Assembly: GCF_014904745.1 (NCBI RefSeq)
Contig: NZ_JACZCS010000014.1
Span: 124,001-188,000 of the forward strand
Direction of reading: 5' to 3'
Length of the DNA: 64,000 nt
DNA from: Oricola nitratireducens
GTDB taxonomy: Bacteria > Pseudomonadota > Alphaproteobacteria > Rhizobiales > Rhizobiaceae
The notes under the pieces were generated by a model. That model was given only the letters and a program-made list of their open reading frames with translations, did no database searches and was not told the origin of the DNA. The translations under genes were made by a program, and so were the position numbers. Numbering within the stretch: the first letter of the stretch is position 1; every line of letters starts with the position of its first letter. Positions 31,914-50,089 of this stretch are shown here, one piece after another.

Positions 31914-32120
31914 TCAACCGATCCTGCTCGTCGCGCTCACCCGCCCGAGAATGGCGACAATTCCGGCGACGGCGGAGATCGTCTGCAGGAGCGCGTCGGT
32001 CAGCGCCGCCTGCCCGCCGGCGTCGACCGGCAGGCCGAGCATTCCGGCGAGCGTCGCGGCGACGCTGACCAGCGCTCCCCAGATGGTCTTCGACAAATAC
32101 CAGGGTTTTTCTTCGTTCAT
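31914..32120 (-). CDS. Putative holin-like small membrane protein at the end of the GTA cluster
   Basis: This is a 68-residue protein with two hydrophobic helices (KTIWGALVSVAATLAGMLGL and ALLQTISAVAGIVAILG) joined by a short turn with small residues, and charged ends. The N-terminal EEKPWYLSKTIW segment resembles small holin-like proteins of rhizobial phages, which hold a pore for lysis. It starts 20 bases after the gp15 stop on the same strand, with AAGGAAC as SD, so it looks like the last gene of the GTA operon. No endolysin gene is adjacent except gp14 (NlpC/P60) upstream. The function is inferred from shape and place only. Confidence 0.5.
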   Translation of the reverse strand: MNEEKPWYLSKTIWGALVSVAATLAGMLGLPVDAGGQAALTDALLQTISAVAGIVAILGRVSATSRIG

Positions 32121-32140
32121 GACAGTTCCTTTCCTTGGCT

Positions 32141-35100
32141 TCAGGGGATGAGAATCGTAGCGCGGGCGGGGATGCCCTCGCCCACGGACTGGCTGATCTG
32201 CGTGACTTCGAGATCGAGAGCGGCATCCGGCGCATCGAGGTCGAGCGACGTCACTGTCGCGGCGTCGAGAATCAGCGCCGGGTCCGTCGCTTCAGCGGAA
32301 AAGAGGGCGCTTTCGCCGTCGTAAATGCGCACGGCATAGCGTTCCTCCGCCTCGCCGAGCGGCACGTCGGTGCCGAGCCACGAGTCGCCGTCGATGCGGG
32401 TGCGGCGGATCCAGACGAGCGCGATGCCGCCGTCTGCCTGCCGTTCCGCGTTCAGATGCACCGGCGACAGCGGGGTCAGCGCGCGCAGGCCGCCGGTTAC
32501 CGCGACGGTCTCGAAATAGCGGTCGGTGAAAGGCCGCCCGGCGACGCCGATGCGCAATTGCAGCGCAAGCCCGATCTCGCTTGCGCGCAGTCCGGCCGGC
32601 ACCACCGCCTCGTTGAGCAGGACGGCGCGCGCGCCGGCGGGTGCGCCCGCCAGCATCGCGCCCTCGGTTCCGCCCTGTCCGCGCAGCAGGCCGGTCAGCT
32701 TCCACTCGCCGGCCGAGACCTCCTCGGCGGACAGGAACTGGATGATCTCCCACGCTCCGCTCGCCGATTGCACCGCGATAAGGTTGCGGCCCGACAGCAG
32801 CGCCGTTTCGCTGACGCTCTCGAATTCGCCGGCGGGCACCGAAAGCTCGACCACATTCGCATGGTCGAAACGGCCGGAAAACGCGCCCGTCAGCGGCGCG
32901 GTCAGGTCGCCCATGACGGCGTTCGACAGCGCTTGTGTCCGATATTCGAAGCCCGACGCTTCCGGCGAGGCATAAACCGCCTGCACACGCGGCGGCGATG
33001 ACCACGCCGCCAACAGGAACTGGTCCTGCGGATCGCGGCCCGGCCGCATCGGCAGGTCGAGCAGCAGGAAATCCGGCACGCCGGCGGTATCGCCAGACGC
33101 TGCGGGACGTTGCGACGGCAGATGCGGGACCCTGGCATTGGCGGGCCTGCGAAACACCGGAACGGCCTCGATGTGCAGCGCGTCGCCAAGATCGGTCCGC
33201 GTCACCAGCCAGCGCGTGGCCGGGTCGGATGCAAAGGCGAAAACGTCGCCCGGCGCGATCCCGGCATGGCGCAAGGCAAGCGCGAAGCGCAGCGTCCGCC
33301 CCCTCGCCCATGCCCGCGCCAGCATGCGGTCGGCGACCGGGTCGATCACGCTCGCATCGGCGATACAGGGCAGATCGTCCGTCTCCTGGCGCGGCGCGCC
33401 GGTCTCCAGCCGGCGCGAATAGCTTGTCGCCGCGCGATAATCGGACAACCCGTCGCGATAGGAGACGACGATTTCGGCCGGCAATTCGCTTTTTTGCGCC
33501 TCGGTCACGTCTCGTAGCGCCTCGCCATCGATATCGGCGATGTCGCCCTCGTCGATGACCCTCGACACCGCCGCGCCCTCGGCGTTGAGCGCAAAGCCGC
33601 CATCCGCCGCCATGTCGGAGGCCGACCAGCCGAAACCCGCCGCCAGCGGCTCCAGCACGTCGCGTACCGACGCCGGCTGCGAGATCACCACGCCCTGAAC
33701 GATATCGGCGACGCCGATAACCGCCTGTGCGTCCGCGTCGTGGTCCCCGAGAATGCGCGCCGCGGTTTCGCGCAGCGGCGCCGTGCCGAGCCGACCGTTC
33801 AGCCAATGGCCGCGCAGCCAGTTCTCGCCATCGCCCCATTCGTCCGTCGCCATCGGAAAAGCCGGAAACGGACGCGCGTCCCATGCCCAGAGATAGATCC
33901 GCGCCGGATCGAGCATCGGTTCGCCGGTCACCGGCGACAGCGGATTGGCGCCCGTCCCGCTCGCCCAATGCTCCAGATGCGTCTGCAGGAAGGCGCGCTG
34001 CTCGCCGTCGTCGCGGCCGCCATTGGAAAACCACGGCACGGCGCTTTCGGACGACTTGGCATCGGTGAAGACATTCGGCTGGGTCGCGCCCTTGTCGATG
34101 GCCGGGCAACCGAGTTCCATCAACCAGATCGACTTCGAACCGGGCACCCAATCGGTTGCCTCCGCCGCCTCCGCGCCCTCTATGCGGTCGAAATGCTCAT
34201 TCGACCACCATGAGACGAGGTCCTTGAAGCGGAACACCCAGGGCTTGCCGGCCAGTCCGTCGGTGATCGGTGTGCGAATGCGGTCACGCCGGTCGCTCTC
34301 GGAGGCGTAATACCAGTCATGGCCCTCGCCGCCCGCAATCGCCGCACGGAAAGCATCCCGGTCGGAAGCCTGCAACTGGCCGTCCGGGTTGGCGCCGGGA
34401 TCGGCCGCGTCGGCGTCGCGCCAGTCGGAGAGCGGCATGTAATTGTCGATACCGACGGCATCGATGTTCGAATCGGCCCACAACGCGTCGAGATGGAACA
34501 AGACGTCGCCCGTACCATCTTGCGGGTGATAGCCGAAATATTCCGACCAGTCGGCGGCATAGGTGATCGCGCAGTCCGGCCCGACCATCGCGCAGACCTC
34601 GGCGGCCAGCGCCTTCAATTCGGCGACGAAGGGAAACGCGCCCGCATCGTCGCGGACCTGCGTCAGGCCGCGCATTTCGGAGCCGATCACGATGGCGTCC
34701 ACACCACCGGCGGCCACAGCAAGGCTCGCATAGTGATTCACCATGCGGCGGTAACCTTCTGCATTGTCAGCGAATTCCGAGATCTGCGTCCCGGCCGCCG
34801 CCGTCCGGTCCGCCGTGTCCGGCCGGCCGATCGCCGGATCGCAGGTGACGCGTCCGCGCCAGGGATAGGCCGGCTGATTGCCGTCCGACCAGGGGTCGGG
34901 CAGCGCGTTGTCCGCCGGCACGTCCATCAGTATGAAGGGGCAGAGCGTCACCTTCAGCCCGCGCGCCTTCAGGTCGGCGATCGCCGCGATCACGCTGGCG
35001 TCCGACGGTGTGCCGCCATAGGCCGGCTTGCCATCGGGCTGCGAAACGACATGCGTGCCGGGATGGCCGCGCCCCATGCCTGCGACGCTCCAGGCCTGGC

Positions 35101-35983
35101 TTTCGCCGCCACCCGACACCGTAACCACGCCCGGGCGCAATTTGCACTCACCGGCGCGCAGGTCGTCGCCGAACCAGGCGACGATCAACGAGACGTTTTC
35201 GAGCGCCGGGCAGACTGCCTGCAACTCGTCGATGGAGGCTTCCCAGTCGGAGCCCGCATACAGCACATGCCGGTTCAGTTCCTTCGTCACGCCCTTTTGC
35301 GGGCTCGCCGTCACGAGGCCCGGCGCATAGCCATGCTCGGTCGAGCCGGGGATGACGCAGACCGCGCGCACCTCTTGCTCCAGTTCGCCGACCGGGCGGA
35401 TTACCTCGACCTGGAATTGCGGCACGCGGTTGCCGAAGCGCTCCAGCGGCAGCCGCTCGAAGACGACATAGGCCGTGCCGCGGAACGCCGGCGCGAGGCC
35501 GGCACCCTGTTTCGCCTCGATCAGCGGATCGGGAAGCTGCGTCTCGTCGCCGGGATAAATCCTCATGGCGATCCCAGTCAGGTCCAGTTCCTTGCCGTCG
35601 GCCCAGACGCGCCTGATCGCCGCGACCGGCCCGTCGCAAAGGCCGATGGCAAGATTAGCGTAGTAGGAATAGGTCGTGACCTTAGGACCGCCCTTGCCGC
35701 CCTGCCGCTCGGTACGCGCGGTCTCCTCGAAGCGCGTCGCCCAGATCACCGTGCCCGACAGGCGCGCCTGGCCGTAGACGCGCGCGATTGGCGTGCCCTC
35801 CTCCGCCGTCAGTGGCCGCGCGCCGGACAGGCGCGCGCCCTCAACATGGCGCGTCGAGTTGATCAGCGCGGTGTCGATCGCATAGCCGGCAAGCGCTCCG
35901 GCCGCCGTGCCGATGGCCGCGCCGGTCGCGCCGAAAACGCCGCCGAGCAGCCCGCCCGCGGCCTGCAGCAGCAGGGTCGCCAT
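32141..35983 (-). CDS. GTA host-specificity/tail-tip protein (gp15-like, TIM-barrel)
   Basis: This is a 1280-residue tail-tip or hub protein that mediates contact with recipient cells in GTA particles. The N-terminus has a Gly/Ala-rich stretch (GGLLGGVFGATGAAIGTAAG). A glycoside-hydrolase TIM-barrel-like domain lies in the middle, marked by AIVIGSEMRGLTQVRDDAG and AITYAADWSEYFGYHP. The C-terminal half has repeated beta-rich segments typical of tail-tip proteins. Length is near that of Rhodobacter capsulatus GTA gp15. It is full-length with no stops. ridA lies between it and gp14 on the other strand, so it may need its own promoter or long readthrough. Confidence 0.9.
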   Translation of the reverse strand: MATLLLQAAGGLLGGVFGATGAAIGTAAGALAGYAIDTALINSTRHVEGARLSGARPLTAEEGTPIARVYGQARLSGTVIWATRFEETARTERQGGKGGPKVTTYSYYANLAIGLCDGPVAAIRRVWADGKELDLTGIAMRIYPGDETQLPDPLIEAKQGAGLAPAFRGTAYVVFERLPLERFGNRVPQFQVEVIRPVGELEQEVRAVCVIPGSTEHGYAPGLVTASPQKGVTKELNRHVLYAGSDWEASIDELQAVCPALENVSLIVAWFGDDLRAGECKLRPGVVTVSGGGESQAWSVAGMGRGHPGTHVVSQPDGKPAYGGTPSDASVIAAIADLKARGLKVTLCPFILMDVPADNALPDPWSDGNQPAYPWRGRVTCDPAIGRPDTADRTAAAGTQISEFADNAEGYRRMVNHYASLAVAAGGVDAIVIGSEMRGLTQVRDDAGAFPFVAELKALAAEVCAMVGPDCAITYAADWSEYFGYHPQDGTGDVLFHLDALWADSNIDAVGIDNYMPLSDWRDADAADPGANPDGQLQASDRDAFRAAIAGGEGHDWYYASESDRRDRIRTPITDGLAGKPWVFRFKDLVSWWSNEHFDRIEGAEAAEATDWVPGSKSIWLMELGCPAIDKGATQPNVFTDAKSSESAVPWFSNGGRDDGEQRAFLQTHLEHWASGTGANPLSPVTGEPMLDPARIYLWAWDARPFPAFPMATDEWGDGENWLRGHWLNGRLGTAPLRETAARILGDHDADAQAVIGVADIVQGVVISQPASVRDVLEPLAAGFGWSASDMAADGGFALNAEGAAVSRVIDEGDIADIDGEALRDVTEAQKSELPAEIVVSYRDGLSDYRAATSYSRRLETGAPRQETDDLPCIADASVIDPVADRMLARAWARGRTLRFALALRHAGIAPGDVFAFASDPATRWLVTRTDLGDALHIEAVPVFRRPANARVPHLPSQRPAASGDTAGVPDFLLLDLPMRPGRDPQDQFLLAAWSSPPRVQAVYASPEASGFEYRTQALSNAVMGDLTAPLTGAFSGRFDHANVVELSVPAGEFESVSETALLSGRNLIAVQSASGAWEIIQFLSAEEVSAGEWKLTGLLRGQGGTEGAMLAGAPAGARAVLLNEAVVPAGLRASEIGLALQLRIGVAGRPFTDRYFETVAVTGGLRALTPLSPVHLNAERQADGGIALVWIRRTRIDGDSWLGTDVPLGEAEERYAVRIYDGESALFSAEATDPALILDAATVTSLDLDAPDAALDLEVTQISQSVGEGIPARATILIP

Positions 35984-36095
35984 TGAATTTCCTCCGATGG
36001 TCGGATGGTGAAGCGCCGGCCGTGCCGGTCAACAAGTGTGGATGATCCCGTGGCGTCGAGTTAACCTAACGGAAGACAACAGGAGGATCTTCGCC

Positions 36096-36500
36096 ATGAA
36101 ATTCGACAGGGAACTGATTTCCAACGGAAATCCCATGGAGGCAATCGTCGGATTCAGCCGCGCGGTCAGGGTCGGCCCGTTCATTTCGATCGGCGGTACC
36201 GCCCCCGTCGGTCCGGATGGCAAGACCGTCGGCATCGGCGATGTCGCCGCGCAAACCCGTCAGTGCATCGAGATCATCAAGACGGCGCTGGAGCAGGCGG
36301 GATCCGGACTGCACGATGTCGTGCGGACGCGCGTGATCCTCACCGACATCGACAACTGGAAAGCCGCGATCGATGTGCGCAAGGAATATTTCCGGGACAT
36401 CCGCCCCGTCGACACCATCATGGCGATCGACCGTTTCGTGAATCCCGAGTGGCTCGTCGAGCTGGAAGTCGATGCGGTTATTGCCGGCTGGGGGACCTGA
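36096..36500 (+). CDS. RidA/YjgF family protein, inserted between GTA genes
   Basis: This is a 134-residue RidA-fold protein; RidA enzymes hydrolyse reactive enamine/imine intermediates made by PLP enzymes. The N-terminus SNGNPMEAIVGFSRAVRVG aligns with the family; VVRTRVILTDIDNW and the closing VELEVDAVIAG are typical. The Arg in DRFVNPEW may match the catalytic Arg region, but the motif is not canonical, so the subtype is unclear. AGGAGG lies ten bases before the ATG at 36096. It is transcribed against the GTA genes and its last 23 bases overlap the 3' end of gp14. It is one of three host insertions in this cluster. Confidence 0.85.
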   Translation: MKFDRELISNGNPMEAIVGFSRAVRVGPFISIGGTAPVGPDGKTVGIGDVAAQTRQCIEIIKTALEQAGSGLHDVVRTRVILTDIDNWKAAIDVRKEYFRDIRPVDTIMAIDRFVNPEWLVELEVDAVIAGWGT

Positions 36501-36945
36501 CAGCCGGAAACGCAAAGACGCCCGCCACACGCCGCCGCCATGAGGGCACAAATGCCGAGGTCATGACTGCGTGGCCTTCATAGGCGTGGATGATGCGGTC
36601 GTCCGGCGCGAGCAGCGCCAGGTGCTTTGCCGCCGTCCCCACCTGCCAGCGGAAAGCGAGGATGTCGCCCGGCCGCATCGCCGCCGGATCGAGTTCGTCG
36701 CAGCGGTCCCGCAACGCCGCCAGCAACGGTTCACCAATCGTCGTCTCCGCCCAGTCGGGCGAATAGGCCAGCCGCGCCGTGATCCGCTCGCCATAGAGCT
36801 CGCGCCAGACACCGAGAACGAGCCCCAGACAGTCGCAACCGACGCCCTTGCGGCTTGCCTGATGACGATAGGGCGTGCCGATCCAGCAACAGGCGATGCC
36901 GAGCGCCTCTTTCCTCGCGGCCTCACGGGACAAGCGGGCCGCCAT
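36478..36945 (-). CDS. GTA NlpC/P60 cell-wall peptidase (gp14-like)
   Basis: This is a 155-residue cysteine peptidase that cuts peptidoglycan during GTA entry or tail assembly. The catalytic Cys lies in KGVGCDCLGLVLGVW, and the His in TAAKHLALLAPD, in the right order for NlpC/P60. The ATG at 36945 overlaps the gp13 3' end by 23 bases; a longer frame to 37077 is not supported. The stop overlaps the end of ridA on the opposite strand. Length fits GTA gp14. Confidence 0.9.
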   Translation of the reverse strand: MAARLSREAARKEALGIACCWIGTPYRHQASRKGVGCDCLGLVLGVWRELYGERITARLAYSPDWAETTIGEPLLAALRDRCDELDPAAMRPGDILAFRWQVGTAAKHLALLAPDDRIIHAYEGHAVMTSAFVPSWRRRVAGVFAFPAVRSPSRQ

Positions 36946-37810
36946 CGAAATCCGTCTCCTCGTCGGCGTAATTGAGCGCTGCGTCATTGGCGGGAATATG
37001 CGGAAAGCCGCGAAAATTGAGCCCGTTGGAAAATTTCGCGCGGCAGGTCTCGAAACGCTTGTCGCAGCCGGCGGCAAGCGCGAACGTGTCGCCGGCCGAG
37101 ATCCCGGCCATGTCCGGTTCGAACAGTGACAGCTCGTGCCCGACAGCGCTCGCGCGCATGGCGGCGACGGTCACGGCGGTTCCAACGCGCTGCCCAGACA
37201 TCCAGCTCAGCCGCCCGTGTACGAACCAGCCGTCGTCGTATCCTTCGAGGCCGGTCACCGTGAGTTGCCCCGCGCCAACGGCCGTCACCGTCCCGCTTGC
37301 GGAGAACCCCGGCGCGCCGGTGTCGAACCCGCAGCGTCCATCGCCGAGATCGGCGTCGCATTTGCGCAGGAAGTAGCGCCCGCGCCGCTCGTCGAATTTC
37401 GCCGACAGGCTTCTGAGTTCGACACGGAACGCCCCGTCGGTGCGGCGGATCTCGCCGACGGCATGGCGCTTCATCAGCGCGTATTGGCCCGGCTCTGCCC
37501 AGTTGACGAGATATTGCTCTATTCCCGCGCCGTCATATTTGTCCGCCTCGATATCGGCCTCGCTGATCGCCTCCGACGACAGCGCGCCGGCGACTTCGGC
37601 CGTGTCGCCGGCGAAACCCAGGCTGGATTCGATGTCGCCCGCGACGAAACCCGTCGCCGGCTCGCAGGCGACGCCTTCGACGGTCAGCGCCCGGTCGTGG
37701 TCGGTAAAGCCGAGCACGATGCCGTCCTTGCGGCGGACGATCCAGCAGAAGCAGACGCTCGTCACCTCCTGGTCGAGATGGTCGCGCAGTTCTTGCGGCA
37801 GGTCCGTCAT
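36923..37810 (-). CDS. GTA tail protein, DUF2163 (gp13-like)
   Basis: This is a 295-residue tail component of the GTA tip/hub. DUF2163 landmarks visible are the N-terminal CFCWIVRRKDGIVLGFTDHD with a typical WxxxRxDG-like pattern, EGVACEPATGFVAGDIESS, and the Cys-rich C-terminal region (CDKRFETCRAKFSNGLNFRG). These cysteines suggest an iron-sulphur or metal site, as proposed for RcGTA gp13. The ATG overlaps the gp12 stop by four bases (ATGA), showing coupling. Confidence 0.9.
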   Translation of the reverse strand: MTDLPQELRDHLDQEVTSVCFCWIVRRKDGIVLGFTDHDRALTVEGVACEPATGFVAGDIESSLGFAGDTAEVAGALSSEAISEADIEADKYDGAGIEQYLVNWAEPGQYALMKRHAVGEIRRTDGAFRVELRSLSAKFDERRGRYFLRKCDADLGDGRCGFDTGAPGFSASGTVTAVGAGQLTVTGLEGYDDGWFVHGRLSWMSGQRVGTAVTVAAMRASAVGHELSLFEPDMAGISAGDTFALAAGCDKRFETCRAKFSNGLNFRGFPHIPANDAALNYADEETDFDGGPLVP

Positions 37811-38421
37811 TCGAACACCTCCACAAGCTGTATGTCGGGGATCTCGCCGGCCTCGAAGGAGGTCTGCGTCACCGCGAGCTGCGCATTGTCGAAGCGCACC
37901 GGCACATGGAACCGGAACCCGGCCGTCACCGCCGCGCCCGGATCCGGCGCGCTCGCAAGCGTGACGACGCCGGTCAGGGCATCGGCGGAGAATTCCGCCG
38001 GGTTCGACAGTTCGATGCCGTCGACCGCGACACGCACCGTTTCCGCGACAGGCTTGGTGACCGGCCGGTTGTCGCCGAGCGCAAGCTGGAACGCGGTGGC
38101 GACCCCGTCGCCCGTGCCGATCGCCCGGTCCGTCGGCGTCACGGTTTCGCCCGGCGCCACCGACTGGTGATCGACCGGGTCGAAAAAGCGGAAGGCGTTC
38201 AGCGGCCCGCCGCGTTCCTCGAAGAAACTCAAAAGGTTATGCAGATCGGCCAAGGATTTGATTCCGGTCGAAATCGTGTAGCGCCGCCGCGAACGCGCCC
38301 AGCGCGCGTTGCGCTGCTCCAGTCCGGAGGCGAGCCGCACGATCTCGATGTGCCGCTCCGGCCCGCCGCTCGCTCCGAAGGCAAGCCGCGACGGGAAGAC
38401 GACGTCGTGAAAACCGCTCAT
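37807..38421 (-). CDS. GTA distal tail protein, DUF2460 (gp12-like)
   Basis: This is a 204-residue distal-tail protein (DUF2460/TIGR02217). Visible landmarks are FHDVVFPSRLAFGASGGPERHIEIV, the RRRYTISTGIKSLADLHNLLSFFEERGGPLNAFRF block, and the PVDHQSVAP segment. It links tail tube to baseplate. It starts ten bases after the gp11 stop and overlaps gp13. Length matches GTA homologues. Confidence 0.9.
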   Translation of the reverse strand: MSGFHDVVFPSRLAFGASGGPERHIEIVRLASGLEQRNARWARSRRRYTISTGIKSLADLHNLLSFFEERGGPLNAFRFFDPVDHQSVAPGETVTPTDRAIGTGDGVATAFQLALGDNRPVTKPVAETVRVAVDGIELSNPAEFSADALTGVVTLASAPDPGAAVTAGFRFHVPVRFDNAQLAVTQTSFEAGEIPDIQLVEVFE

Positions 38422-38430: not shown

Positions 38431-39009
38431 TCAGTTCGCTCTTCGCCCCCGCGCGACGGCACGCGCCAGCGCGGCGGAGACCTGCGCCTCCGACTTGCGG
38501 AAGGAGCCTGCATCCGGCGTGTTTATCGTGACATTGACCATCACCGGCGCACCGCCCTCGCCCGTAGCGACGCCCAGCCGCCCGTCCGGTCCGCGGCTCA
38601 AGGGCAGGATCGCCTCCGGTCCCACCTCTCCGGCCAGCCCGGTGCGCCCGCCGCCCATCGGGAAATAGGCCGGCGCGGCCAGCACGCCGCCACCGGCGAA
38701 CATCGCGTCCGCGCCGACCACGCCGCCCTGCGCGAAGGGCAATATGCCCGAGACCCCGGAGAACGCCCGCGAGGCAAAGCCGTTCAGCAGGTTCTGCAAG
38801 GGCGCGAGACCGGCATTCAACGCGCTTGTCGCGAGATTCTGGCCGATCGAACGCAGCGTGTCCTCCAGCGAGCGGCCGGAGACGGCCGCGCCCTTCAGCG
38901 CGCCGGTCAGCGTCGTGCCAAACGACGAAGCCTGCCGCTCAAGCGATTTCAGCGCCGTCTCGAAGCCGGTCGTGTCGGCGTTGATGGCGATTGTGAGTTG
39001 TTCATCCAA
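38431..39009 (-). CDS. GTA tape-measure protein (gp11-like)
   Basis: This 192-residue protein sets tail length. The N-terminus LTIAINADTTGFETALKSLER is the typical start of GTA tape measures, followed by an amphipathic helical stretch and a Gly-rich region (ILPFAQGGVVGADAMFAGG). The C-terminus ends AALARAVARGRR. GTA tails are short, so the small size is expected. The start is TTG with AAGG about 12 bases upstream, unusual beside the other GTA ATG starts. A diverged scrap with the same N-terminus lies 690 bases upstream (see pseudogene), and a PACE gene sits between them. Confidence 0.88.
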   Translation of the reverse strand: MDEQLTIAINADTTGFETALKSLERQASSFGTTLTGALKGAAVSGRSLEDTLRSIGQNLATSALNAGLAPLQNLLNGFASRAFSGVSGILPFAQGGVVGADAMFAGGGVLAAPAYFPMGGGRTGLAGEVGPEAILPLSRGPDGRLGVATGEGGAPVMVNVTINTPDAGSFRKSEAQVSAALARAVARGRRAN

Positions 39010-39170: not shown

Positions 39171-39587
39171 ATGCGCTCCACCCCCGACCGTATCCGCCAC
39201 ACGATCAGCTTCGAGATCCTCGCCATCCTCATGGTCGTGCTGCTCGGCAACCGGCTGTTCGGCATGCCGGCGATGAACATGGGCGCGGTTGGCATCGCCA
39301 GTTCGGTCGTCGCTATGATCTGGAACTATCTCTACAATCTCGGTTTCGATCACGCCTTGCTCCGGTTGACCGAAAGCTCGCGGAAGAAGGGTTTTGGCGT
39401 CCGCGTCCTCCATGCCGTGCTGTTCGAGTTCTTGCTGACCGTCCTGCTGCTGCCGGTGATCGTCATCATCCTCGGCGTCAGTCTGCGGGAGGCGCTCGTC
39501 ATCGACCTCTCGCTGACGGTCTTCTTCCTGGTCTACACCTTCACCTTCAATCTCGTTTACGACCGGATTTTCCCGATCCCGGAGTGA
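39171..39587 (+). CDS. PACE-family proton-coupled efflux protein, inserted in the GTA cluster
   Basis: This is a 138-residue four-helix inner-membrane exporter of the PACE family (AceI-like), which exports biocides such as chlorhexidine or natural polyamines. Visible features are the N-terminal RIRHTISFEILAILMVVLLG with the conserved Glu in SFE and a paired bacterial transmembrane pair repeat in each half (WNYLYNLGFDHAL and FTFNLVYDRIF). Export in AceI relies on that Glu. It is on the plus strand, opposite to the GTA genes. No regulator gene is adjacent. Codon use looks like the host's. Confidence 0.88.
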   Translation: MRSTPDRIRHTISFEILAILMVVLLGNRLFGMPAMNMGAVGIASSVVAMIWNYLYNLGFDHALLRLTESSRKKGFGVRVLHAVLFEFLLTVLLLPVIVIILGVSLREALVIDLSLTVFFLVYTFTFNLVYDRIFPIPE

Positions 39588-39697: not shown

Positions 39698-39747
39698 GGC
39701 CGAAATCTCCTAAGACCTTGCGAGTTTCAATGACGCGGAGGACTGCG

Positions 39748-42797: not shown

Positions 42798-43135
42798 GGC
42801 GTTTCCTCCCGCGTCAGGCAGAGGAGGTAACGGCCCGTCTCGTCGAGATCGCGAACCGCGCGGATGGCGAAAACCCTCTCGCCTGTCACCAGCCGCATAC
42901 CGCGCTGCACGCCGGCGTCGGCGCGCAACACGACATGATGCGTGATTTCGGCTTCCTCGCCATCGGCGCGGCGCACCGGGCTTGCCGTCGCCGGTACGAG
43001 ATGCGCCCAGACGGTCGCGAGCGTCTGCCACGTTTCGGTCTGGCCGCCGAGCGTGTCCGCCACACGCACCGCCTGTTGCAGCGCCATTTCGTGGCGCAGT
43101 TTTCCAGGATCAAAGAACACCGTTTTCATGGTCAC
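42794..43135 (-). CDS. GTA head-closure/adaptor protein (gp7-like)
   Basis: This is a 113-residue head-tail adaptor or stopper (SPP1 gp16-like). Family landmarks: FFDPGKLRHEMALQQAV at the start, LGGQTETWQTLATVWAHLVPATASPVRRADGEEAEITHHVVLRADAG in the core (quoted only in part), and VTGERVFAIRAVRDLDETGRY near the end. The GTG at 43135 overlaps the gp6 stop (GTGA); the ATG two codons later is also possible. Confidence 0.88.
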   Translation of the reverse strand: MTMKTVFFDPGKLRHEMALQQAVRVADTLGGQTETWQTLATVWAHLVPATASPVRRADGEEAEITHHVVLRADAGVQRGMRLVTGERVFAIRAVRDLDETGRYLLCLTREETP

Positions 43136-43701
43136 ACCGAGAGAAACCGGAAATGCCGCGTCAGCCGCGCATAGAGCGCCGGTACGGAGACCGGATGGTC
43201 GGCGGCGTCGAACACGCCGCGGAATTCGTACCAGTGCGCGACCAGCACGAGGACCGCGCGTTTCAGCATGTCCGGTACGTCGACGCCGGTCTCGCCGTAA
43301 CCGGCGTCGAAATCGACCTCGATGCCGTTGGCGCGCATCGCCAGCGTCACGCCATCGGCAAGCCGCAGCCGCGCCGGGCGCGCAACCAGATTGACGTAGT
43401 AGCCGGAGCCGTCGAGCACGGTTCCATTGCCGGCGCCGTCATAGACGGTCACGGCGACGATGCCGCGTACCGGCGAGCGCATCAGCTCCAGCACGCCGTC
43501 GGCCGGCACGCAGTCGAAATACGCCCGCCACTGCTGGTCGATCAGCGCCTGGCCGGTATCGCGTTCGAGATATTGCGTCGCGGTCGCGATCAAGGCGGTG
43601 ATCGTGTCGTCCTCGGTGCCGGAGGTCACGCGCAGATGCGCCTTCGCCTCGGTAAGCGTCACCGGCATCGCCGCGGGCGCGGCAATCTGGGCATAGGTCA
43701 T
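43132..43701 (-). CDS. GTA head-tail connector (gp6-like)
   Basis: This is a 189-residue head-tail connector of the phage gp6/phiE125 gp8 family. Landmarks: the N-terminal PVTLTEAKAHLRVTSGTEDD (typical of connectors), QYLERDTGQALIDQQWRAYFD, and the C-terminal PDMLKRAVLVLVAHWYEFRG. The ATG at 43701 is chosen for its GGAG seven bases upstream; an earlier start at 43713 lacks a good SD. Confidence 0.9.
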   Translation of the reverse strand: MTYAQIAAPAAMPVTLTEAKAHLRVTSGTEDDTITALIATATQYLERDTGQALIDQQWRAYFDCVPADGVLELMRSPVRGIVAVTVYDGAGNGTVLDGSGYYVNLVARPARLRLADGVTLAMRANGIEVDFDAGYGETGVDVPDMLKRAVLVLVAHWYEFRGVFDAADHPVSVPALYARLTRHFRFLSV

Positions 43702-43772
43702 GGATGTCTCCATAAATGGAACGGGAAACGGCCCCGGCGGGAGGAAGACCGGGGCCGTCTTGTCGGTCCTGC

Positions 43773-45020
43773 TTACGCAGTTCCGAACTTGAGCAGCTTG
43801 ATCGCGTCGAAATCCTGCACCCCGCCGCCGACGCGCTTGGTCGTGTAGAACAGCACGTAGGGCTTGGCCGAATAGGGATCGCGCAGCACCGAGACGCCGG
43901 TGCGGTCGACGACGAGATAGCCGCGGCCAAAATCACCGAAGGCGATGGCCATTTCGTCGGAGCCGATATCCGGCATGTCCTCGGCCTCGACCAGCGGGAA
44001 GCCCATCAGCATCGCCTTCTGGCCGACCGCCGCCGGCGGCTGCCAGATATAGTTGCCGTCGGCATCCTTGATCTTGCGGATCGCGGCCTGCGACTTGCGG
44101 TTCATCACCCACGAAGCGTTCTGGCGGTAGCCGGCCTTGAGCGCATAAACCATGTCGATCAGCACGTCGGACGGATCGGACGCCGGCAGCGCGCCGTCGA
44201 CGCCGGTCGCGACATAGCCGATCTTGTCCCAGGTCCAGCTGGCTTCCGCGATCGTCGTGTAATCGAGGAAGCCGCGCGGCTTGTTGGTTCCGGCGCCGGC
44301 GACAAAGGCGGCGCCCTCCTGTTCGGCGAAGGCGGCGTCGACTTCCTGGGCGATCCACTGGTCGATATCGACCACCGAGTCCTCCAGAAGCTGCGCCGTC
44401 GCCGCCGGCATGGCGTAGAGCTCCATCGTCGGGAACTGCAATTCGGCGAGCGTCGAGGCCGCCGTCTGCGGCCGCGCATCCGTCTCGCCAACCCAGCCGA
44501 CCGCCGGACCGCCGATGGCGAAGGGCTTCTTCAGCACCGAGCCCGATACCTGCCTGACGCTGGCGATCGAGCGGATCGGCGAAATGTCGCGCAGCCGCGC
44601 GCCGATGGCGGCTTCCGTCTCGGGCGGCACCAGATAGCCGCCGTCCGGGCCGGAGCCGATCGACATCGCCTTGCCTTCCAGCGCCTGCAGCCGGCGCTCA
44701 TCGCCGCGTCGCACATAGTTCTCGAAGGCGGCCTTGTGTTCGCTCGGCACAGCCGGTTCGCCACCGCCGAGTGGTGGACGGGCCTGCTTGCGCACCAGCG
44801 TGTCGAGCGTGCGCTTCTGTTCGTCGAGCGCCTGGTTGATGCGCTCGACCTTGTCGCTGGTAACGCCGTCGGCGCCGAAGCGGCTCTCGATCTGTGCCAG
44901 CCGCTCGTCATTTGCCTGCTTGAACTCGTCGAAGGCGTGCATGAAGTCGTCAAAGGCTTCCGCCACATCGCCGTCCGCCGCCGATTTCAGTTCGGGGGCG
45001 ACAATCGTTTCCTGTTTCAT
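43773..45020 (-). CDS. GTA major capsid protein (gp5-like, HK97 fold)
   Basis: This is the 415-residue HK97-type major capsid protein. Residues 1 to about 110 are a charged coiled coil (the delta/scaffold domain, cleaved by the protease). The HK97 core follows from about residue 120, with IRSIASVRQVSGSVLKKPFAIGG and LEDSVVDIDQWIAQEVDAAFAEQE, and ends in KPYVLFYTTKRVGGGVQDFDAIKLLKFGTA (partly quoted). The ATG overlaps the protease stop by four bases. Length and processing region fit GTA capsids. Confidence 0.94.
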   Translation of the reverse strand: MKQETIVAPELKSAADGDVAEAFDDFMHAFDEFKQANDERLAQIESRFGADGVTSDKVERINQALDEQKRTLDTLVRKQARPPLGGGEPAVPSEHKAAFENYVRRGDERRLQALEGKAMSIGSGPDGGYLVPPETEAAIGARLRDISPIRSIASVRQVSGSVLKKPFAIGGPAVGWVGETDARPQTAASTLAELQFPTMELYAMPAATAQLLEDSVVDIDQWIAQEVDAAFAEQEGAAFVAGAGTNKPRGFLDYTTIAEASWTWDKIGYVATGVDGALPASDPSDVLIDMVYALKAGYRQNASWVMNRKSQAAIRKIKDADGNYIWQPPAAVGQKAMLMGFPLVEAEDMPDIGSDEMAIAFGDFGRGYLVVDRTGVSVLRDPYSAKPYVLFYTTKRVGGGVQDFDAIKLLKFGTA

Positions 45021-45688
45021 CGTGTTCCTCGTGTCGGTTGGAGTTGCCGGGCCGCTTCGCGGATCGTCTTCGCGAGGCCCTTTTCCCCGGCCGCGCCGTC
45101 CCGGCGGCGTCCGAGCGAAGCGAAGCCCCTGGCGATCACCGCCCTCGCCTCGCTCCTGGTCAGCCCGGCATCCCGCACGAGCCAGCGTTCGAATTCGCGC
45201 GCCGTCGGCCGGCGCCCGGCCTTGACGGCGGTGACGCGCGCCTGCGGCAGCATCGGAAAGGTCACCACCGAGATCTCCCAGAGGTCGGCCTCGAGGATGC
45301 GGCGGACGCCGCTGCGCGCCTCCTTTTTCGCCTTCACCGTCCTGAAACCGATCGACAGCCCGTCGAGACCGCCATTCCTTAATAGCGCCAACACCTCTCG
45401 GCCCTTGGCGACCTCGGTCGATATCCTGCCCTCGACATAGAGTCCGCGTGCGTTCTCGCGGATCGCCGTCCAGCGGCCGATAACTTCGTCGGGATTGTGC
45501 TGGAACAGCATGCGGATCCCGCCGGCGCCTCTGGCCGCCAGTGATTTGGCGAAGGCGCCGCGCTCCACCGCGTCGCGGCCGAGATCGACCGCGCCGAAGA
45601 CGCTGGCATAGCCGGAAATGGTGCCGTCGCCGGCTTCCAGCTCCACCCGGTTGAACTTGTGCTCCAGGCTCTTCGCGTCAGTGCTCAT
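45017..45688 (-). CDS. GTA prohead protease (gp4-like, HK97 family)
   Basis: This 223-residue serine protease cleaves the capsid's scaffold domain. Catalytic His lies in MLFQHNPDEVIGRW, Ser in DGLSIGFRTVKAKK, and the Glu/acid nearby in EADLWEISVVTFPMLPQARV. The C-terminal extension with LAKTIREAARQLQ is longer than in RcGTA. The ATG at 45688 is chosen; a longer frame adds unrelated residues and overlaps the gp3.5-like gene more. It overlaps the latter by 11 bases. Confidence 0.92.
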   Translation of the reverse strand: MSTDAKSLEHKFNRVELEAGDGTISGYASVFGAVDLGRDAVERGAFAKSLAARGAGGIRMLFQHNPDEVIGRWTAIRENARGLYVEGRISTEVAKGREVLALLRNGGLDGLSIGFRTVKAKKEARSGVRRILEADLWEISVVTFPMLPQARVTAVKAGRRPTAREFERWLVRDAGLTRSEARAVIARGFASLGRRRDGAAGEKGLAKTIREAARQLQPTRGTR

Positions 45689-46040
45689 CGCAGCCCTCCC
45701 GCCGTGGCTTGCTTTCCGCGGGCCTGCCGGCAATCAGCCGGTCGCCGAAGCGGATCGCGAAACCGATCGCCCACCAGATCGACAGGCTCGACAGCGCCGA
45801 CCCCATCAGCACCAGTTCATGCGGCGACAGGTTCGCGTCGACGCCGAGGCGCTTGGCGACCGCCAGCCCGGCGGTGCCGCCGAACACGAGCCCCGCCGAC
45901 ATCGAGGCGAGGAAGCGCAGCGCCGCCTCGCGGCGGCCCTTCGGCAAGAGATAGGCGAGCGAGATCGCCGAGCCGGCGAGCGCGCCGGCCGTTTTCGCCA
46001 GCCACAGGGAAGCGGCCGGCGACAGGTCCGTCATGGTCAT
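45678..46040 (-). CDS. GTA small membrane protein (gp3.5 position, DUF6107-like)
   Basis: This is a 120-residue protein with three hydrophobic stretches: the WLAKTAGALAGSAISLAYLLP start, LRFLASMSAGLVFGGTAGLAVA, and LVLMGSALSSLSIWWAIGFAIRF. It corresponds in place to RcGTA gp3.5 between portal and protease, and matches DUF6107-type proteins that I recall from rhizobial GTA clusters. It may act in particle maturation or release at the membrane. Two ATGs (46040 and 46034) are possible. Confidence 0.75.
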   Translation of the reverse strand: MTMTDLSPAASLWLAKTAGALAGSAISLAYLLPKGRREAALRFLASMSAGLVFGGTAGLAVAKRLGVDANLSPHELVLMGSALSSLSIWWAIGFAIRFGDRLIAGRPAESKPRREGCDEH

Positions 46041-46053
46041 GATCTGTCCTCAT

Positions 46054-47238
46054 TCAGGATTTCGGGCCGTAGCCCACGGCTTCGCGCTTCTCGTCGTCAC
46101 TGAGGAAGCTCGCCCGCTCGAGCCGCGCCCACAGCGCGTCGCGCTCGGCGGAAAGTCCCTCGATGCGGTCGGCGTCGGGCGCGAGGCGCAGAGGCCCATC
46201 GCCGATGAAACGGGAAAAGGCGTCGGCGGTGCGGGTCACCAGCGGCAGCACGGTCAGCCTGTAGAAGGCGCGGTTCGCCTCGGCATAATTGGCATAGGTG
46301 TTGTCGCCGGGAATTCCGAGCAGCATCGGCGGCACGCCGAAGGCGAGCGCGATGTCGCGGCTGGCGGCGTGTTTGGCCTGGATGAAATCCATGTCCTTCG
46401 GCGTCAGGCCCATCGCCTTCCAGTCGAGCCCGCCTTCGAGTAGCAGCGGCCGCCCGGCATTCGACGCGCCGGCATATTCCGTCTCGAGATCGCGTTTCAG
46501 CTGCTCGCGCTGCTCCGGCGCCATGTTGCCGCCCTCCGGCGGCGCATAGACCAGCGCGCCGGAAGGCCGCGCCGCATTGTCGAGCAGCGCCTTGTTCCAG
46601 GTGCCCGCCGCATTGTGGATGTCGAGCGCCATCAGCGCGGCCTCCAGCGGCGCGAAGCCGCGCAGGTCATCGAGCGGGTGGAACAGCGTCAAATGCAGCA
46701 ATCGCGGCTCGCCGCCTGCCTCCTCGAAGGGTATCCGCCGTTTGACCGGCCCGGCCTGGTAGTCGACCGCGACCGGCCAGCCGTCCGCCCCGGTGACAAC
46801 CGACACCCGGTCGGGACGCAGCAGATAAAGCGCGTCGCCGTCCGTGCTGCCCGCCACGCGCTCGATGAAGGCGTTTCCTGACAGAAGCAGGTGGCCGTAG
46901 AGCGCTTCCAGAAATGAGGCGCGAGTGTCGCGCATGTTCGGGCTTTCCAGCAGCGCCATGACCGGATGGTCCGGCACCTCGGCGTCGCCGTCATAGGCGA
47001 GCCAGGGCACCGCGCCCGCCGCCTCCGAGATCATCCGCACGCAGCGGTGGACGACCGGATTGCGCATGAAGCCTTCGCGCGACAGGGCGCCGTAGGAGGC
47101 CGACGTCCATGCCGCGGTTGCCGCGCCATGCATGGCGACGAAGCCCAGGGGCCAGCCCTTCGCCTCCGCCGGTTTCACGGCATGTTTGTCCCGGCCAAGC
47201 CCGAAGGCCCGGGCCAGCCAGTTGGCAGATCGATTCAT
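46054..47238 (-). CDS. GTA portal protein (gp3-like, HK97 family)
   Basis: This 394-residue protein forms the portal ring through which DNA enters and leaves the capsid. Landmarks: FMRNPVVHRCVRMISEAAGAVPWLAY, the GHLLLSGNAFIERVAG segment, LTLFHPLDDLRGFAPLEAAL, and LGIPGDNTYANYAEANRAFYRLTVLPLV (partly quoted). Length matches RcGTA gp3. The gene begins 33 bases after a strong terminator that ends the upstream hxlR gene. Confidence 0.94.
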   Translation of the reverse strand: MNRSANWLARAFGLGRDKHAVKPAEAKGWPLGFVAMHGAATAAWTSASYGALSREGFMRNPVVHRCVRMISEAAGAVPWLAYDGDAEVPDHPVMALLESPNMRDTRASFLEALYGHLLLSGNAFIERVAGSTDGDALYLLRPDRVSVVTGADGWPVAVDYQAGPVKRRIPFEEAGGEPRLLHLTLFHPLDDLRGFAPLEAALMALDIHNAAGTWNKALLDNAARPSGALVYAPPEGGNMAPEQREQLKRDLETEYAGASNAGRPLLLEGGLDWKAMGLTPKDMDFIQAKHAASRDIALAFGVPPMLLGIPGDNTYANYAEANRAFYRLTVLPLVTRTADAFSRFIGDGPLRLAPDADRIEGLSAERDALWARLERASFLSDDEKREAVGYGPKS

Positions 47239-47322: not shown

Positions 47323-47760
47323 CTATGCCGCTACGGCTTCGTCCTCGTCGAAGGCGTTGCGCGCGGCGCGTATGTCGTCATGGCGCGTCTCGGCCCAGGC
47401 GATCAGCGCCGACAGCGGCTCCAGTACCGAGTGGCCGAGTTCCGTCAGCCGGTAGTCGACCGTCGGCGGCGTCGTCGGATAGACGGTCCTGTCCACCAGG
47501 CCGTCGCGCTGCAGCGTCCGCAGCGTCTGGGTCAGCATCCGCTTCGAAATATCGCCGACCGCCCGGTTGAGCGCGCTGAACCGCTTCGGCTCCTCGGCAA
47601 GCGCAGTCAGGATCAGGACCGACCATTTGTCGCCGACCCGGTCCAGCACGTCACGCACCGGGCAATTCGCGGCGTCGAACCCCGCTTCCTGCCAGGCGTC
47701 GAAACGCTGGCTCATCTCTTCCGTCACGGCCGGGAGGTTACCTTCATGTGCCTTGGTCAT
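47323..47760 (-). CDS. HxlR-family winged-helix regulator (QorR/YtfH-like), inserted between gp2 and gp3
   Basis: This 145-residue DNA-binding regulator has the HxlR domain: [71 protein letters not shown] (partly quoted). The Cys in NCPVRD is the sensor Cys in several redox-sensing HxlR members. The ATG at 47760 has AAGGAGG ten bases upstream. It is divergent from a QorB-like gene, as in E. coli ytfH-ytfG, and probably represses it in response to electrophiles or quinones. It is on the GTA strand but ends in its own terminator. Confidence 0.88.
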
Positions 47761-47805
47761 GAAAAAGTGCCTCCTTCCATCGCCTTCCGAGAGTTGGTAA
47801 CTAAA

Positions 47806-47834
47806 AGAGACCATACCTCATTTAGAGACCTAAA
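47806..47834. promoter_or_regulatory. Possible HxlR operator between hxlR and qorB-like genes
   Basis: The heptamer AGAGACC occurs twice, 18 bases apart (47806 and 47824). The second copy lies inside a small palindrome TTTAG-AGAC-CTAAA (47821-47834). The position, within 55 bases of both starts, fits an autoregulated divergent promoter. This is a pattern match only. Confidence 0.4.
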
Positions 47835-47857
47835 ACAAACCTGAAAGGAACAATACC

Positions 47858-48739
47858 ATGACCACCGCAAAATATCTCGTCACCGGAGCCTCCGGCCAAC
47901 TCGGCACGCTGGTCATCGCCGACCTCCTCAAGAAAACACCCGCGGCAAATATTGTCGCGCTCGTGCGCCGGCCGGAATCCGCCGCCGCGTTCGAGGCGAA
48001 GGGCATCGAGGTCCGGTTCGGCGACTACACCGATCCCGCGTCACTCGAAAAGGGCTTCCGTGATATCGACCGGCTGCTGCTGATCTCGTCCTCCGAAATC
48101 GGCCAGCGTGCTGTCCAGCATCAAAATGCCATCTCGGCGGCGAAAAAAGCCGGCGTCGGCTTCATCGCCTACACCTCGATCCTCAAGGCCGACACGTCTC
48201 CGCTCGGCCTCGCTGTCGAACACCGCGCCACCGAGGCCGACCTCGCGGCCTCGGGCATTCCCTACGCCTTCCTGCGCAACGGCTGGTATACAGAGAACAA
48301 GACGGGCTCGATCGATCCGGCCATCGAACACGGCGCCTATATCGGCGCGGCGGGAGACGGCCGCATTTCCAGCGCGCCGCGCCTGGACTACGCCAAGGCG
48401 GCCGTTGCCGTCCTGACGGCGGATGCGCCGGCCGAAAACGTGGTCTATGAACTCGCCGGCGACGACAGTTTCTCGATGGCCGAATTCGCCGCGGCGATCG
48501 CGAACTCTGCCGGCAAGCCCGTCGCCTATGCGGACATGAGCGAGGCCGATTATGCCGCCGCGCTGGAAGGCGCGGGCCTCCCTAGGGCATTCGCCGAATT
48601 GCTGGCCGACAGCGATGCCGGCACGGCAAAAGGCGCGCTCGAAGACAACAGCCGCACGCTGTCGCGTCTCATCGGCCGTCCGACGACGCCGTGGACCGAG
48701 ACGGTCGCCTCGGCGATCGCCACACGCAAGGCGGCCTGA
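47858..48739 (+). CDS. NmrA/SDR-type NAD(P)-dependent quinone oxidoreductase (QorB-like)
   Basis: This is a 293-residue Rossmann-fold oxidoreductase of the atypical SDR (NmrA) family. The N-terminal dinucleotide loop is YLVTGASGQLGTLVIADLL, with ALVRRPESA (NADP-preferring Arg) and IAYTSILKADTSPLGLAVEHRATE further on; this pattern is close to E. coli QorB/YtfG, which reduces quinones. AAGGAAC precedes the ATG. It is divergent from its likely regulator hxlR and lies on the strand opposite to the GTA genes. Confidence 0.88.
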   Translation: MTTAKYLVTGASGQLGTLVIADLLKKTPAANIVALVRRPESAAAFEAKGIEVRFGDYTDPASLEKGFRDIDRLLLISSSEIGQRAVQHQNAISAAKKAGVGFIAYTSILKADTSPLGLAVEHRATEADLAASGIPYAFLRNGWYTENKTGSIDPAIEHGAYIGAAGDGRISSAPRLDYAKAAVAVLTADAPAENVVYELAGDDSFSMAEFAAAIANSAGKPVAYADMSEADYAAALEGAGLPRAFAELLADSDAGTAKGALEDNSRTLSRLIGRPTTPWTETVASAIATRKAA

Positions 48740-48761
48740 CGGCGAGAACCGAAGCCTGATC

Positions 48762-48782
48762 GAGGGGGCTCAAAGCCCCCTC
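48762..48782. terminator. GC-rich hairpin between qorB-like and terminase genes
   Basis: GAGGGGGCT-CAA-AGCCCCCTC is a perfect nine-pair stem, between the convergent qorB-like stop (48739) and the terminase stop (48770-48772), overlapping the latter. No T-run follows on either strand, so it may be a weak bidirectional stop or pause. Confidence 0.5.
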
Positions 48783-50089
48783 ACCCGCGGCTCACCGTGC
48801 CGCCCCAGCAGCAATTCGCTGACCGCCCAGACCATGGCGTCGAGCCGGTCGGGCGAGCGGCCGGACGCCAATCCGTCCGTGCCGAACTCGCACATCTCGT
48901 CCTCCAGAGCGCCAAGTCCCGGCGCATGCGTCACCCTATTCTGCTCGTAGAGCGCGGCAACGGGTTCGGCGCGCAGCCATTTGCCACGTTTGGCATGTAC
49001 CTTCTTCAGCGCCACGGTGGCATCGATCTGCCGGATCACGGCCTCGACCATGTCGCCGCCCTGGTTGACCTCGGCGAGGATCAGGTCCGCTCCGAGCGTC
49101 TCGTAGAGTGCCACCGCCTTCGCCGCCCAGGCCGACGGTTTTGCCGCCCGCAGGCTCGCATCCGCGATCACATGGGCGACGCCGTTGCCGGTGATCCCGG
49201 CGGCGACGATGCCGCAGGCGTCCGAGGTCGATTTCGAGCCCGCCGGCGGATCGACCGCGACGACGATGCGCTTCAAATCCTTCGGCGCCTCCCGCCGCCG
49301 CAGACCGTCGATCTGGCTGCGCGTCCACAACGCGCCATCGGCCTCTTCCAGGATCTCGGCGTGGAGTTCCTGGCGGCCGAGGCGAGTGTCCTCGTATTTG
49401 GCGAGCACCGCGTCGAGAAAACCCGGCGCGAGGTTGATCGCGTTATCGAAGGTCGAGCCTCTTGTGACTGCTGTCGCCGGGTCCGCCGCGAGTTCCTTGA
49501 TGAGGCGCAACGGCTTCGGCGTCGTGGTGATACAGGCCTGCGGATTGACACCCAGCCTGAGGCCGAACATCGCCATGTCCCAGGTCTCGCGCGAATAGGT
49601 CCACGCGCAAATCTCGTCGGCCCATATTTTCTCGTGCTGCGGCCCGCGCAGGCGCTCCGGCTCCTCGGCGGAGAAGATCATCGCCACCGCGCCGTTGGCC
49701 CAGACCACGCGGCGCATGGTCGGCTGGTAGACCGGCCGCCCGAGCCAGCGCCCATCATGCGTAAAATCGCCCTCCCAGCACACCGAAAGCAGCCCGCTTT
49801 CGCCGCGTATCATGATGTCGCGCGCATCGGCGATGGTCGGCGCGATCAGGGCGATGCGCCCTGCCCCGGCCTTTGCCTGCCCGCGCACCCATTCGGCGCC
49901 GGACCGCGTCTTGCCGAAGCCGCGCCCGGCGAGGATCAGCCAGTTGCGCCAGTCACCCGGCGGCGGCAACTGGCCCGGCCGGGCGAAGATACGCCAATCA
50001 TGCCGGAACAGGGTGCGCAGAAGGGCATCGTCCGTCTCCGACAGGCCGATCAGTATCTCGCGCGGCAAGGTGTCGAGCAATGAGGTCAT
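48770..50089 (-). CDS. GTA terminase large subunit (gp2-like)
   Basis: This 439-residue packaging motor has an N-terminal ATPase with Walker A LILAGRGFGKTRSG and Walker B with the catalytic acid in EKIWADEICAW, and a C-terminal nuclease domain with the metal-binding Asp in VVAVDPPAGSKSTSD. It packs DNA into GTA heads; the nuclease motif looks intact. The ATG at 50089 has AGGGG eight bases upstream. No gp1 gene (small terminase) is clearly present before it. It is separated from the portal by 1.5 kb of inserted genes. Confidence 0.93.
   Translation of the reverse strand: MTSLLDTLPREILIGLSETDDALLRTLFRHDWRIFARPGQLPPPGDWRNWLILAGRGFGKTRSGAEWVRGQAKAGAGRIALIAPTIADARDIMIRGESGLLSVCWEGDFTHDGRWLGRPVYQPTMRRVVWANGAVAMIFSAEEPERLRGPQHEKIWADEICAWTYSRETWDMAMFGLRLGVNPQACITTTPKPLRLIKELAADPATAVTRGSTFDNAINLAPGFLDAVLAKYEDTRLGRQELHAEILEEADGALWTRSQIDGLRRREAPKDLKRIVVAVDPPAGSKSTSDACGIVAAGITGNGVAHVIADASLRAAKPSAWAAKAVALYETLGADLILAEVNQGGDMVEAVIRQIDATVALKKVHAKRGKWLRAEPVAALYEQNRVTHAPGLGALEDEMCEFGTDGLASGRSPDRLDAMVWAVSELLLGRHGEPRVRGL

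Follow-up and report, generated by a model that had tools for sequence, protein, structure and literature searches.

Gene transfer agent (GTA) particle genes are usually pictured as one operon, and the g1-g15 gene order of the Rhodobacter capsulatus agent (RcGTA) served here for comparison; phages, for their part, can carry extra genes between structural genes, known as morons. For the agent of Caulobacter crescentus (CcGTA), PMC11150451 reports that GafY and IHF activate the GTA promoter and that GafZ is a demonstrated anti-terminator, which binds a palindrome between the -10 and -35 elements and allows the polymerase to pass terminators; the same paper describes GafZ as having no sequence similarity to Q or AlpA. 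Here we analyse a GTA cluster interrupted by host genes in a 64-kb stretch of the Oricola nitratireducens genome (contig NZ_JACZCS010000014.1, positions 124,001 to 188,000; the window), which is part of an assembly of 4.93 Mb in 66 contigs (label G000).

The best explanation for this locus, which as a whole we consider fairly probable, has three parts: structural genes that purifying selection maintains despite the repeated arrival of host genes among them, probable read-through of the interruptions by anti-termination, and second copies of the GTA promoter. Three samples were used: six genomes of the genus (the window strain and G001-G005), with the cluster present in five and nearly gone in G001; 84 Rhizobiales loci, made up of the window, four congeners and 79 named Rhizobiales loci; and 121 genomes of the family, for capsid and promoter searches. 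Locus L008, taken as the same contig as G003, was left out of most counts.

Structural genes and host-gene insertions

Gene content and order identify the cluster as a gene transfer agent of the RcGTA type, in a Rhizobiales bacterium. On the minus strand, g2 to g15 keep the RcGTA order (Table 1), and all 17 GTA open reading frames (ORFs) are open (g2, g3, g3.5, g4-g15, g10.1 and a 51-aa ORF between g7 and g8), bearing out an earlier note on this DNA that had described full frames in canonical order. Pfam matches agree with the expected head and tail families for g2, g3, g4-g9 and g12-g15 (terminase, portal, S78 protease, HK97 capsid, connector, head completion, gp17, tail tube, DUF2460, baseplate hub, NlpC/P60 and GTA_TIM), and the remaining five genes (g3.5, g10, g10.1, g11 and the 51-aa ORF) were assigned by position and by tblastn to relatives; g11 was submitted to Pfam without a match, and the other four were not submitted. 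Overlaps of 4 to 23 bases join g3.5/g4, g4/g5, g6/g7, g12/g13 and g13/g14. The 51-aa ORF is matched in all four congeners and, elsewhere, in under half of the loci. At its low end, the span that the note had given to the GTA was too long: the two overlapping ORFs near 31914 have no Pfam match, no GTA gene was found there, and g15 ends at 32141.

The four congeners with the cluster carry the same 17 genes; over 12 GTA proteins, identity among these congeners and with the window strain is 78-81%. Ratios of nonsynonymous to synonymous substitution (dN/dS, Nei-Gojobori) for 16 GTA genes, over 10 genome pairs each, were 0.069-0.292 at a dS of 0.63-1.00, values that record past selection and in which a recent loss of function would not show; two neighbouring host genes gave 0.065 and 0.235. 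Genes g2-g14 passed an integrity test in the window strain and the four congeners, and g15 aligned over nearly its whole length without stops in all five genus clusters. An apparent stop in g4 of G005 was discarded, as it sits at the very end of the aligned part. The insertions of the congeners overlap but differ, in a pattern of nested sharing, and none of them breaks a g2-g15 frame; the earlier note had named shared insertions together with frame-broken GTA genes as the outcome that would favour decay, and the comparison of gene order in relatives gave the reverse. Its statements that no capsid or tail gene is broken, and that selection keeps the particle genes, agree with these frames and ratios.

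Judged by its neighbours and substitution pattern, the cluster is inherited vertically at a fixed chromosomal place and under purifying selection. The flank of response regulator and histidine kinase next to g15 is common to the genus, and MW462191 has response-regulator and ccm neighbours. A search of the whole genome returned one portal match and one capsid match, so that no spare GTA copy was found, an alternative that had been raised beforehand. In G001, by contrast with the other genus genomes, neither portal nor capsid was matched; what is left of g15 at the orthologous place (L110, around 565-753) is its final 63 codons, beside the conserved response regulator and kinase. Loss by a single deletion was not borne out there, as about 10 kb of other genes follow the scar. 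Members of the genus either have a whole cluster, g1 aside, or have lost nearly all of it.

The three breaks listed by the earlier note, holding hxlR-qorB, PACE with a glutathione S-transferase (GST) and Stf0, and ridA, were all confirmed by Pfam, as was the plus-strand orientation of every insert except hxlR. The count was nevertheless incomplete: tauD is a fourth interruption, because the GTA promoter sits on its far side from g2. Congeners have further inserts, namely TetR and zinc dehydrogenase genes between g5 and g6 in G003, a BrnT-BrnA toxin-antitoxin pair between the capsid (g5) and connector (g6) genes in G004 (L092:12717-13267), and NUDIX genes next to PACE in G003 and G004. The tauD gene of G004 stands upstream of the promoter instead of between promoter and g2, and in G003, where tauD itself is missing from this place, a 75-base piece matching the tauD upstream region remains between promoter and g1. 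Inserts have therefore probably been lost as well as gained. Upstream of the g1 remnant lies a 100-bp element that was considered as a possible repeat; it proved to be single-copy in the genome and matches the tauD upstream region of G004.

Slow decay, in which a GTA no longer used in the lineage gathers insertions since nothing removes them, is in our judgement unlikely. It could account for the broken g1-like gene beside g2 here and its truncation in G002, for tauD between promoter and g2, for the near-complete cluster loss in G001 and the missing GTA_holin match in five of six genus genomes, and also for other Rhizobiales loci without many of the genes (for example, L036, L044 and L057) and for 12 failures of the integrity test among 70 loci, some perhaps through divergence. 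It does not fit well with five genus clusters lacking any broken g2-g15 frame at dN/dS of 0.07-0.29, with insertions that mostly avoid coupled borders (see below), or with the retention of the main promoter and of an intact distal g1-like gene with a GTA promoter. For g2-g15, decay is disfavoured on this sequence evidence.

Distribution of insertions across Rhizobiales

In at least 46 of the 84 loci, matched GTA genes that are adjacent, or one gene apart, are separated by a gap of more than 300 bp, which is a lower bound because some loci end inside the cluster; some of these gaps contain no called gene. The earlier note had contrasted the interruptions with the contiguous RcGTA operon; the interruptions are real in this cluster, but the contrast is weaker than it had seemed, because they are common in Rhizobiales.

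Borders were called coupled when the median gap was 5 or less, that is, when the genes normally overlap or nearly touch. Gaps above 300 bp occurred at eight of 522 coupled borders versus 68 of 536 other, open borders (p 1.3e-13, an optimistic value because the loci are related). Three of the eight lie at g14/g15, the ridA border, so that one exception is found inside this window. Insertions are thus far commoner at uncoupled borders, though not confined to them. L079 was excluded from the border count for a misplaced g11 match and retained among the 46. After the capsid gene, 23 of 26 inserted ORFs of at least 100 aa are antisense, although many share ancestry and the three sense ones are all in L080; before the capsid gene, sense orientation prevails among called inserts (40 versus 9 antisense), and GTA accessories rather than host genes may be among the sense ones. 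The integrity test, covering g2-g13 minus g3.5 and g10.1 in the 70 of 84 loci that were long enough, was passed by 22 of 29 clusters with inserts of at least 100 aa versus 36 of 41 without (p 0.21).

Elsewhere in Rhizobiales, the cargo includes MFS, trypsin-like, PAP2, GNAT, PIN and toxin-antitoxin genes. It is quite unlikely, in our view, that the inserts are moron-like cargo, as the earlier note had proposed, kept since their position in the GTA cluster benefits the host. Their functions in detoxification and stress (HxlR/QorB, PACE, GST and RidA, with NUDIX, TetR with zinc dehydrogenase and BrnTA in congeners) would suit such a role, the antisense bias after the capsid gene would permit independent expression, and hxlR-qorB and PACE occupy the same border in five and four of five genus clusters, respectively, with dN/dS of 0.21-0.38. 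The identity of the cargo, however, varies widely across Rhizobiales, GST-Stf0 (one of five) and ridA (two of five) are patchy among the genus clusters, and tauD has left a scar in G003. Tolerance of insertions accounts for the pattern without any cargo benefit, and moron-like cargo is unproven. The host genes are mostly passengers with turnover, any one of which could bring a selected benefit.

Several loci merit separate mention. An antisense ORF of 406-541 aa occupies g8/g9 in L040, L046, L053, L058, L059 and L060, which are of the Rhizobium/Neorhizobium type; that of L046, the only one scanned, is an MFS transporter. L079 and L083 have an antisense trypsin-like gene between g5 and g6, behind the capsid gene, and the g5/g6 ORFs of L071, L084 and L086 (not scanned) are similar to it in size and orientation. 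L096 (MW091529.1) and L097 (MW462191.1) are filed as phages and look like chromosomal Rhizobiales GTA clusters; MW462191 continues into ccm and other host genes. G003 has a second, distant portal-like gene (G003:C32:228934-229803; 30% identity), perhaps belonging to a prophage.

GTA promoter, relocated g1-like gene and proposed read-through

Comparison of the sequence upstream of g2 across Rhizobiales loci uncovered a predicted GTA-specific promoter with an inverted repeat between -35 and -10. Its consensus runs from a TAGGAAAATA stretch to TTGAC, the palindrome CACCGTNACGGTG and a TAG-type -10, with a 17-base spacer; the palindrome is CACCGTNACGGTG in most copies and imperfect in some. In the window promoter, whose hexamers were assigned by eye, the palindrome CACCGTCACGGTG overlaps the end of the -35 and the spacer. 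This site matches the genus pattern with 0 mismatches and promoter model R1 with an E value of 2.2e-15, the site itself being among the 39 rows of the model, which include both window-strain copies. A weight matrix trained on 64 non-genus loci scored a single window position above 8 bits, and that position was 51474-51547 (score 60.5); a longer promoter pattern matched nowhere in the window when 3 mismatches were allowed. Generic scans were uninformative, both for sigma-70 consensus (1 promoter-like site versus 2.3 expected by chance) and for terminators (10 terminator-like sites versus 13.4 expected).

When up to 4 of 15 bases could mismatch and TA was required at the -10, the promoter was found in 69 of 79 testable loci (64 of 74 outside the genus and 5 of 5 within); five loci without a g2 match were left out, and L048, which has a short upstream sequence, is among the ten without promoter. 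In the family sample, 97 of 121 genomes had a promoter match at E 0.01 and 90 a strong one (E up to 4e-5), whereas the capsid was found in 88 at 1e-60, of which 83 were strong (E at or below 3e-158). Strong capsid and strong promoter matches occur together in 77 genomes: in 72 the promoter precedes the capsid gene on one contig and strand, at a distance of 3.9 to 52.6 kb, and in the other five the two are on different contigs. In G027:C4, G125:C24, G112:C14 and G007:C12, promoter and capsid gene are 14 to 53 kb apart, a hint of interruptions or rearrangements on a still larger scale.

Within the genus, the model found two promoter copies in the window strain, one in G002, two in G003, one in G004 and three in G005; the GTA-free G001 gave none. 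Additional copies lie between hxlR and g3 in G003 and G005, and before a distal g1-like gene in the window strain and G005; the G003 copy before g3 outscores the original upstream copy (48.2 versus 27.7 with the weight matrix). Predicted leader terminators stand behind nine of nine genus copies versus 12 of 219 random stretches in the same test.

The genus g1-like gene is a putative small terminase by its place and length, without a domain match. It abuts or overlaps g2 in G003, G004 and G005 (134-151 aligned residues), and a relative occupies the same place in G026, from a second genus. The earlier note had called the cluster complete, which holds for g2-g15; beside g2, the window strain retains only a C-terminal stretch of the g1-like gene with two in-frame stops, and its intact 144-aa copy is found about 37 kb from g2, at G000:C28:211346-211777, directly behind the second GTA promoter copy. 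G005 has both a local and a distal copy, and the distal copies of the two strains adjoin the same neighbour gene, present in all six genus genomes, which we take to be oligopeptidase-like. The encoded proteins have an N-terminal stretch that we read as helix-turn-helix (HTH)-like and a CPxC motif. A canonical g1 profile (28 rows) gave nothing convincing in the genus genomes (best E 0.026); outside the genus it had matches in 65 of 79 loci (E below 1e-6), close to where g1 is expected upstream of g2, their positions not having been checked individually. If the structural genes had come to build a different product, for instance a tail-like or DNA-free particle, the cluster could tolerate having lost its neighbouring small terminase, in keeping with the remnant here and the truncation in G002; with the distal g1-like gene present, and with the g2 terminase, portal, protease and capsid all under purifying selection, we regard this as very improbable.

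An overlapping gene pair in one operon 25 kb away (G000:C28:198882-200145) encodes a DnaA-type HTH protein (PF08299) and a DUF6456 protein (PF20057). We take the two as GafY and GafZ, the assignment of each being presumptive; DUF6456 appears as gafA in PMC9765227. Together with the promoter, palindrome and leader terminator, these genes resemble the Caulobacter anti-termination system, and a start signal of this special kind may allow transcription to continue across the interruptions. GafZ would load at the palindrome between -35 and -10 and make RNA polymerase resistant to terminators, and a single transcript would then span about 19 kb, through GTA genes and antisense host genes alike. Host genes newly arrived at open borders would be left nearly neutral, because one anti-terminated transcript would read through them.

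Since second promoter copies precede detached pieces, g3 in G003 and G005 and the relocated g1-like gene in the window strain and G005, a single operon may be turning into a small dispersed regulon. A more specific version, which we put forward tentatively as somewhat short of an even chance, is that of a Rhizobiales GTA becoming a dispersed regulon through a promoter-palindrome-terminator cassette that would load GafZ, confer tolerance of inserts and be copied before detached pieces: g3 behind hxlR-qorB in two congeners, and the small-terminase-like gene 37 kb away, whose former copy next to g2 has decayed.

Several observations weigh against a maintained GTA read through by anti-termination. 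The leader-terminator test was passed by 29 of 73 promoter copies overall, ten of the 79 testable loci have no promoter match by our criterion, and in the family sample six genomes have the capsid only and 13 the promoter only. No promoter copy precedes g3 in the window strain itself. Of the seven copies in G108, five are distant from GTA genes, and the DUF6456 gene of the gafZ type persists in G001, which lacks the GTA cluster, so that its presence is no proof of GTA use. The g1-like gene adjoining g2 is a remnant in the window strain; in G002 the local one is down to residues 77-140, and the only other match is weak (E 3e-4). GTA_holin_3TM (PF11351) was matched in one of the six genus genomes, which is not the window strain. 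The dN/dS values, finally, look back in time, as stated above.

The five distant copies of G108 (L180, L181, L182, L183 and L184) lie mostly beside antisense or unrelated ORFs, and their -10 regions depart from the norm. A wider GTA regulon was considered from the extra copies in G108 and G033; because most of these adjoin unrelated or antisense ORFs, no regulon is claimed from them.

GTA genes that are broken up and yet kept need a reason, and anti-termination is a testable one: if true, it would let cells tolerate insertions, and gafZ would be needed for genes beyond the first terminator. Of the new elements, three stand out as most useful, namely the conserved promoter cassette, the second copies behind splits and the relocated small-terminase-like gene; the promoter provides a sequence tag for GTA clusters in Rhizobiales, and the relocated gene suggests a route for GTA genes to leave the cluster without being lost.

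Table 1. Positions of the GTA genes, inserted host genes, promoter elements and flanking genes in the window
Feature	Coordinates	Strand	Evidence and remarks
GTA promoter	51474..51547	-	-35 TTGACA, palindrome CACCGTCACGGTG, 17-bp spacer, -10-like TAGCCT
Predicted leader terminator	51440..51469	-	26-nt hairpin and T4 directly past the promoter; -20.8 kcal/mol
tauD, TauD/TfdA-family dioxygenase (fourth insert)	50309..51430	+	PF02668 1.3e-48; between promoter and g2, antisense to GTA genes
g1-like remnant	about 50052..50231	-	beside g2
g2 large terminase	48770..50089	-	PF03237, PF17289; dN/dS 0.29
NmrA/QorB-like NAD(P)-binding reductase (insert, g2/g3)	47858..48739	+	PF13460, PF05368; same border in 5/5 genus clusters
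HxlR-family regulator (insert, g2/g3)	47323..47814	-	PF01638; divergent from qorB; 5/5 genus clusters
g3 portal	46054..47238	-	PF04860 9.9e-84
g3.5 small protein	45678..46040	-	position, tblastn to congeners
g4 prohead protease	45017..45688	-	PF04586
g5 major capsid protein	43773..45020	-	PF05065 8.7e-92
g6 head-tail connector	43132..43713	-	PF05135
g7 head completion	42794..43135	-	PF05521
51-aa ORF between g7 and g8	42642..42797	-	conserved, tblastn to congeners
g8 tail completion	42248..42661	-	PF11367
g9 tail tube	41806..42213	-	PF06199
g10	41489..41806	-	position, tblastn 91-96% identity to congeners; dN/dS 0.07
g10.1	41305..41496	-	position, tblastn to congeners
Stf0 sulfotransferase (insert, g10.1/g11)	40497..41261	+	PF09037 3.6e-95; window-strain cluster only
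GST (insert, g10.1/g11)	39685..40398	+	PF13417, PF02798; window-strain cluster only
PACE/BTP transporter (insert, g10.1/g11)	39171..39587	+	PF05232 2.3e-41; 4/5 genus clusters
g11 tape measure	38431..39009	-	position, tblastn 80-84% identity to congeners; no Pfam match
g12	37807..38421	-	PF09343
g13 baseplate hub	36923..37810	-	PF09931, PF09356
g14 NlpC/P60 peptidase	36478..36945	-	PF00877; start set by hand
RidA family (insert, g14/g15)	36066..36500 (longest frame from 36036)	+	PF01042; converges on g14; also in G003, so 2/5 genus clusters
g15 hub with GTA TIM barrel	32141..35983	-	PF13547 8.4e-136
Conserved flank: response regulator (30832-31515), histidine kinase (29451-30827)	29451..31515	-	next to g15 in congeners, also at the lost site of G001
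CcmE and CcmF	25181-27984		beyond histidine kinase

Comparison with known systems

A search of open-access literature turned up neither an RcGTA-type cluster described as containing host genes nor any account of this promoter in Rhizobiales, both being weak negatives. The cluster shares with RcGTA the content and order of g2-g15, the GTA TIM-barrel hub and GafA-type regulators encoded elsewhere. It differs in the four sets of host genes that interrupt it or separate it from its promoter, in the reduction of the g1-like gene beside g2 to a remnant with an intact one 37 kb away, and in the length of the genus g1-like proteins, with 134-151 aligned residues as compared with a canonical g1 of 324 bases, whose function is also treated in PMC6854486.

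The likeness to the processive anti-termination of lambda Q and AlpA, as outlined in PMC11150451, lies in sequence anatomy, namely a putative loading element between -10 and -35 and an early terminator, predicted here. As with phage morons, extra genes stand between structural genes; here they are mostly in the opposite direction, and their identity varies between close relatives.

With CcGTA, as described in PMC11150451, the locus shares separate genes of the gafY and gafZ types, a palindrome between the -35 and -10 of a promoter almost exclusive to the cluster, and a terminator, predicted here, downstream of that promoter. The palindrome in our loci is, however, mostly CACCGTNACGGTG and the -35 is near consensus; the predicted terminator of the genus comes right behind the promoter, whereas that of Caulobacter comes behind the first gene, and genomes of this genus have up to three promoter copies each.

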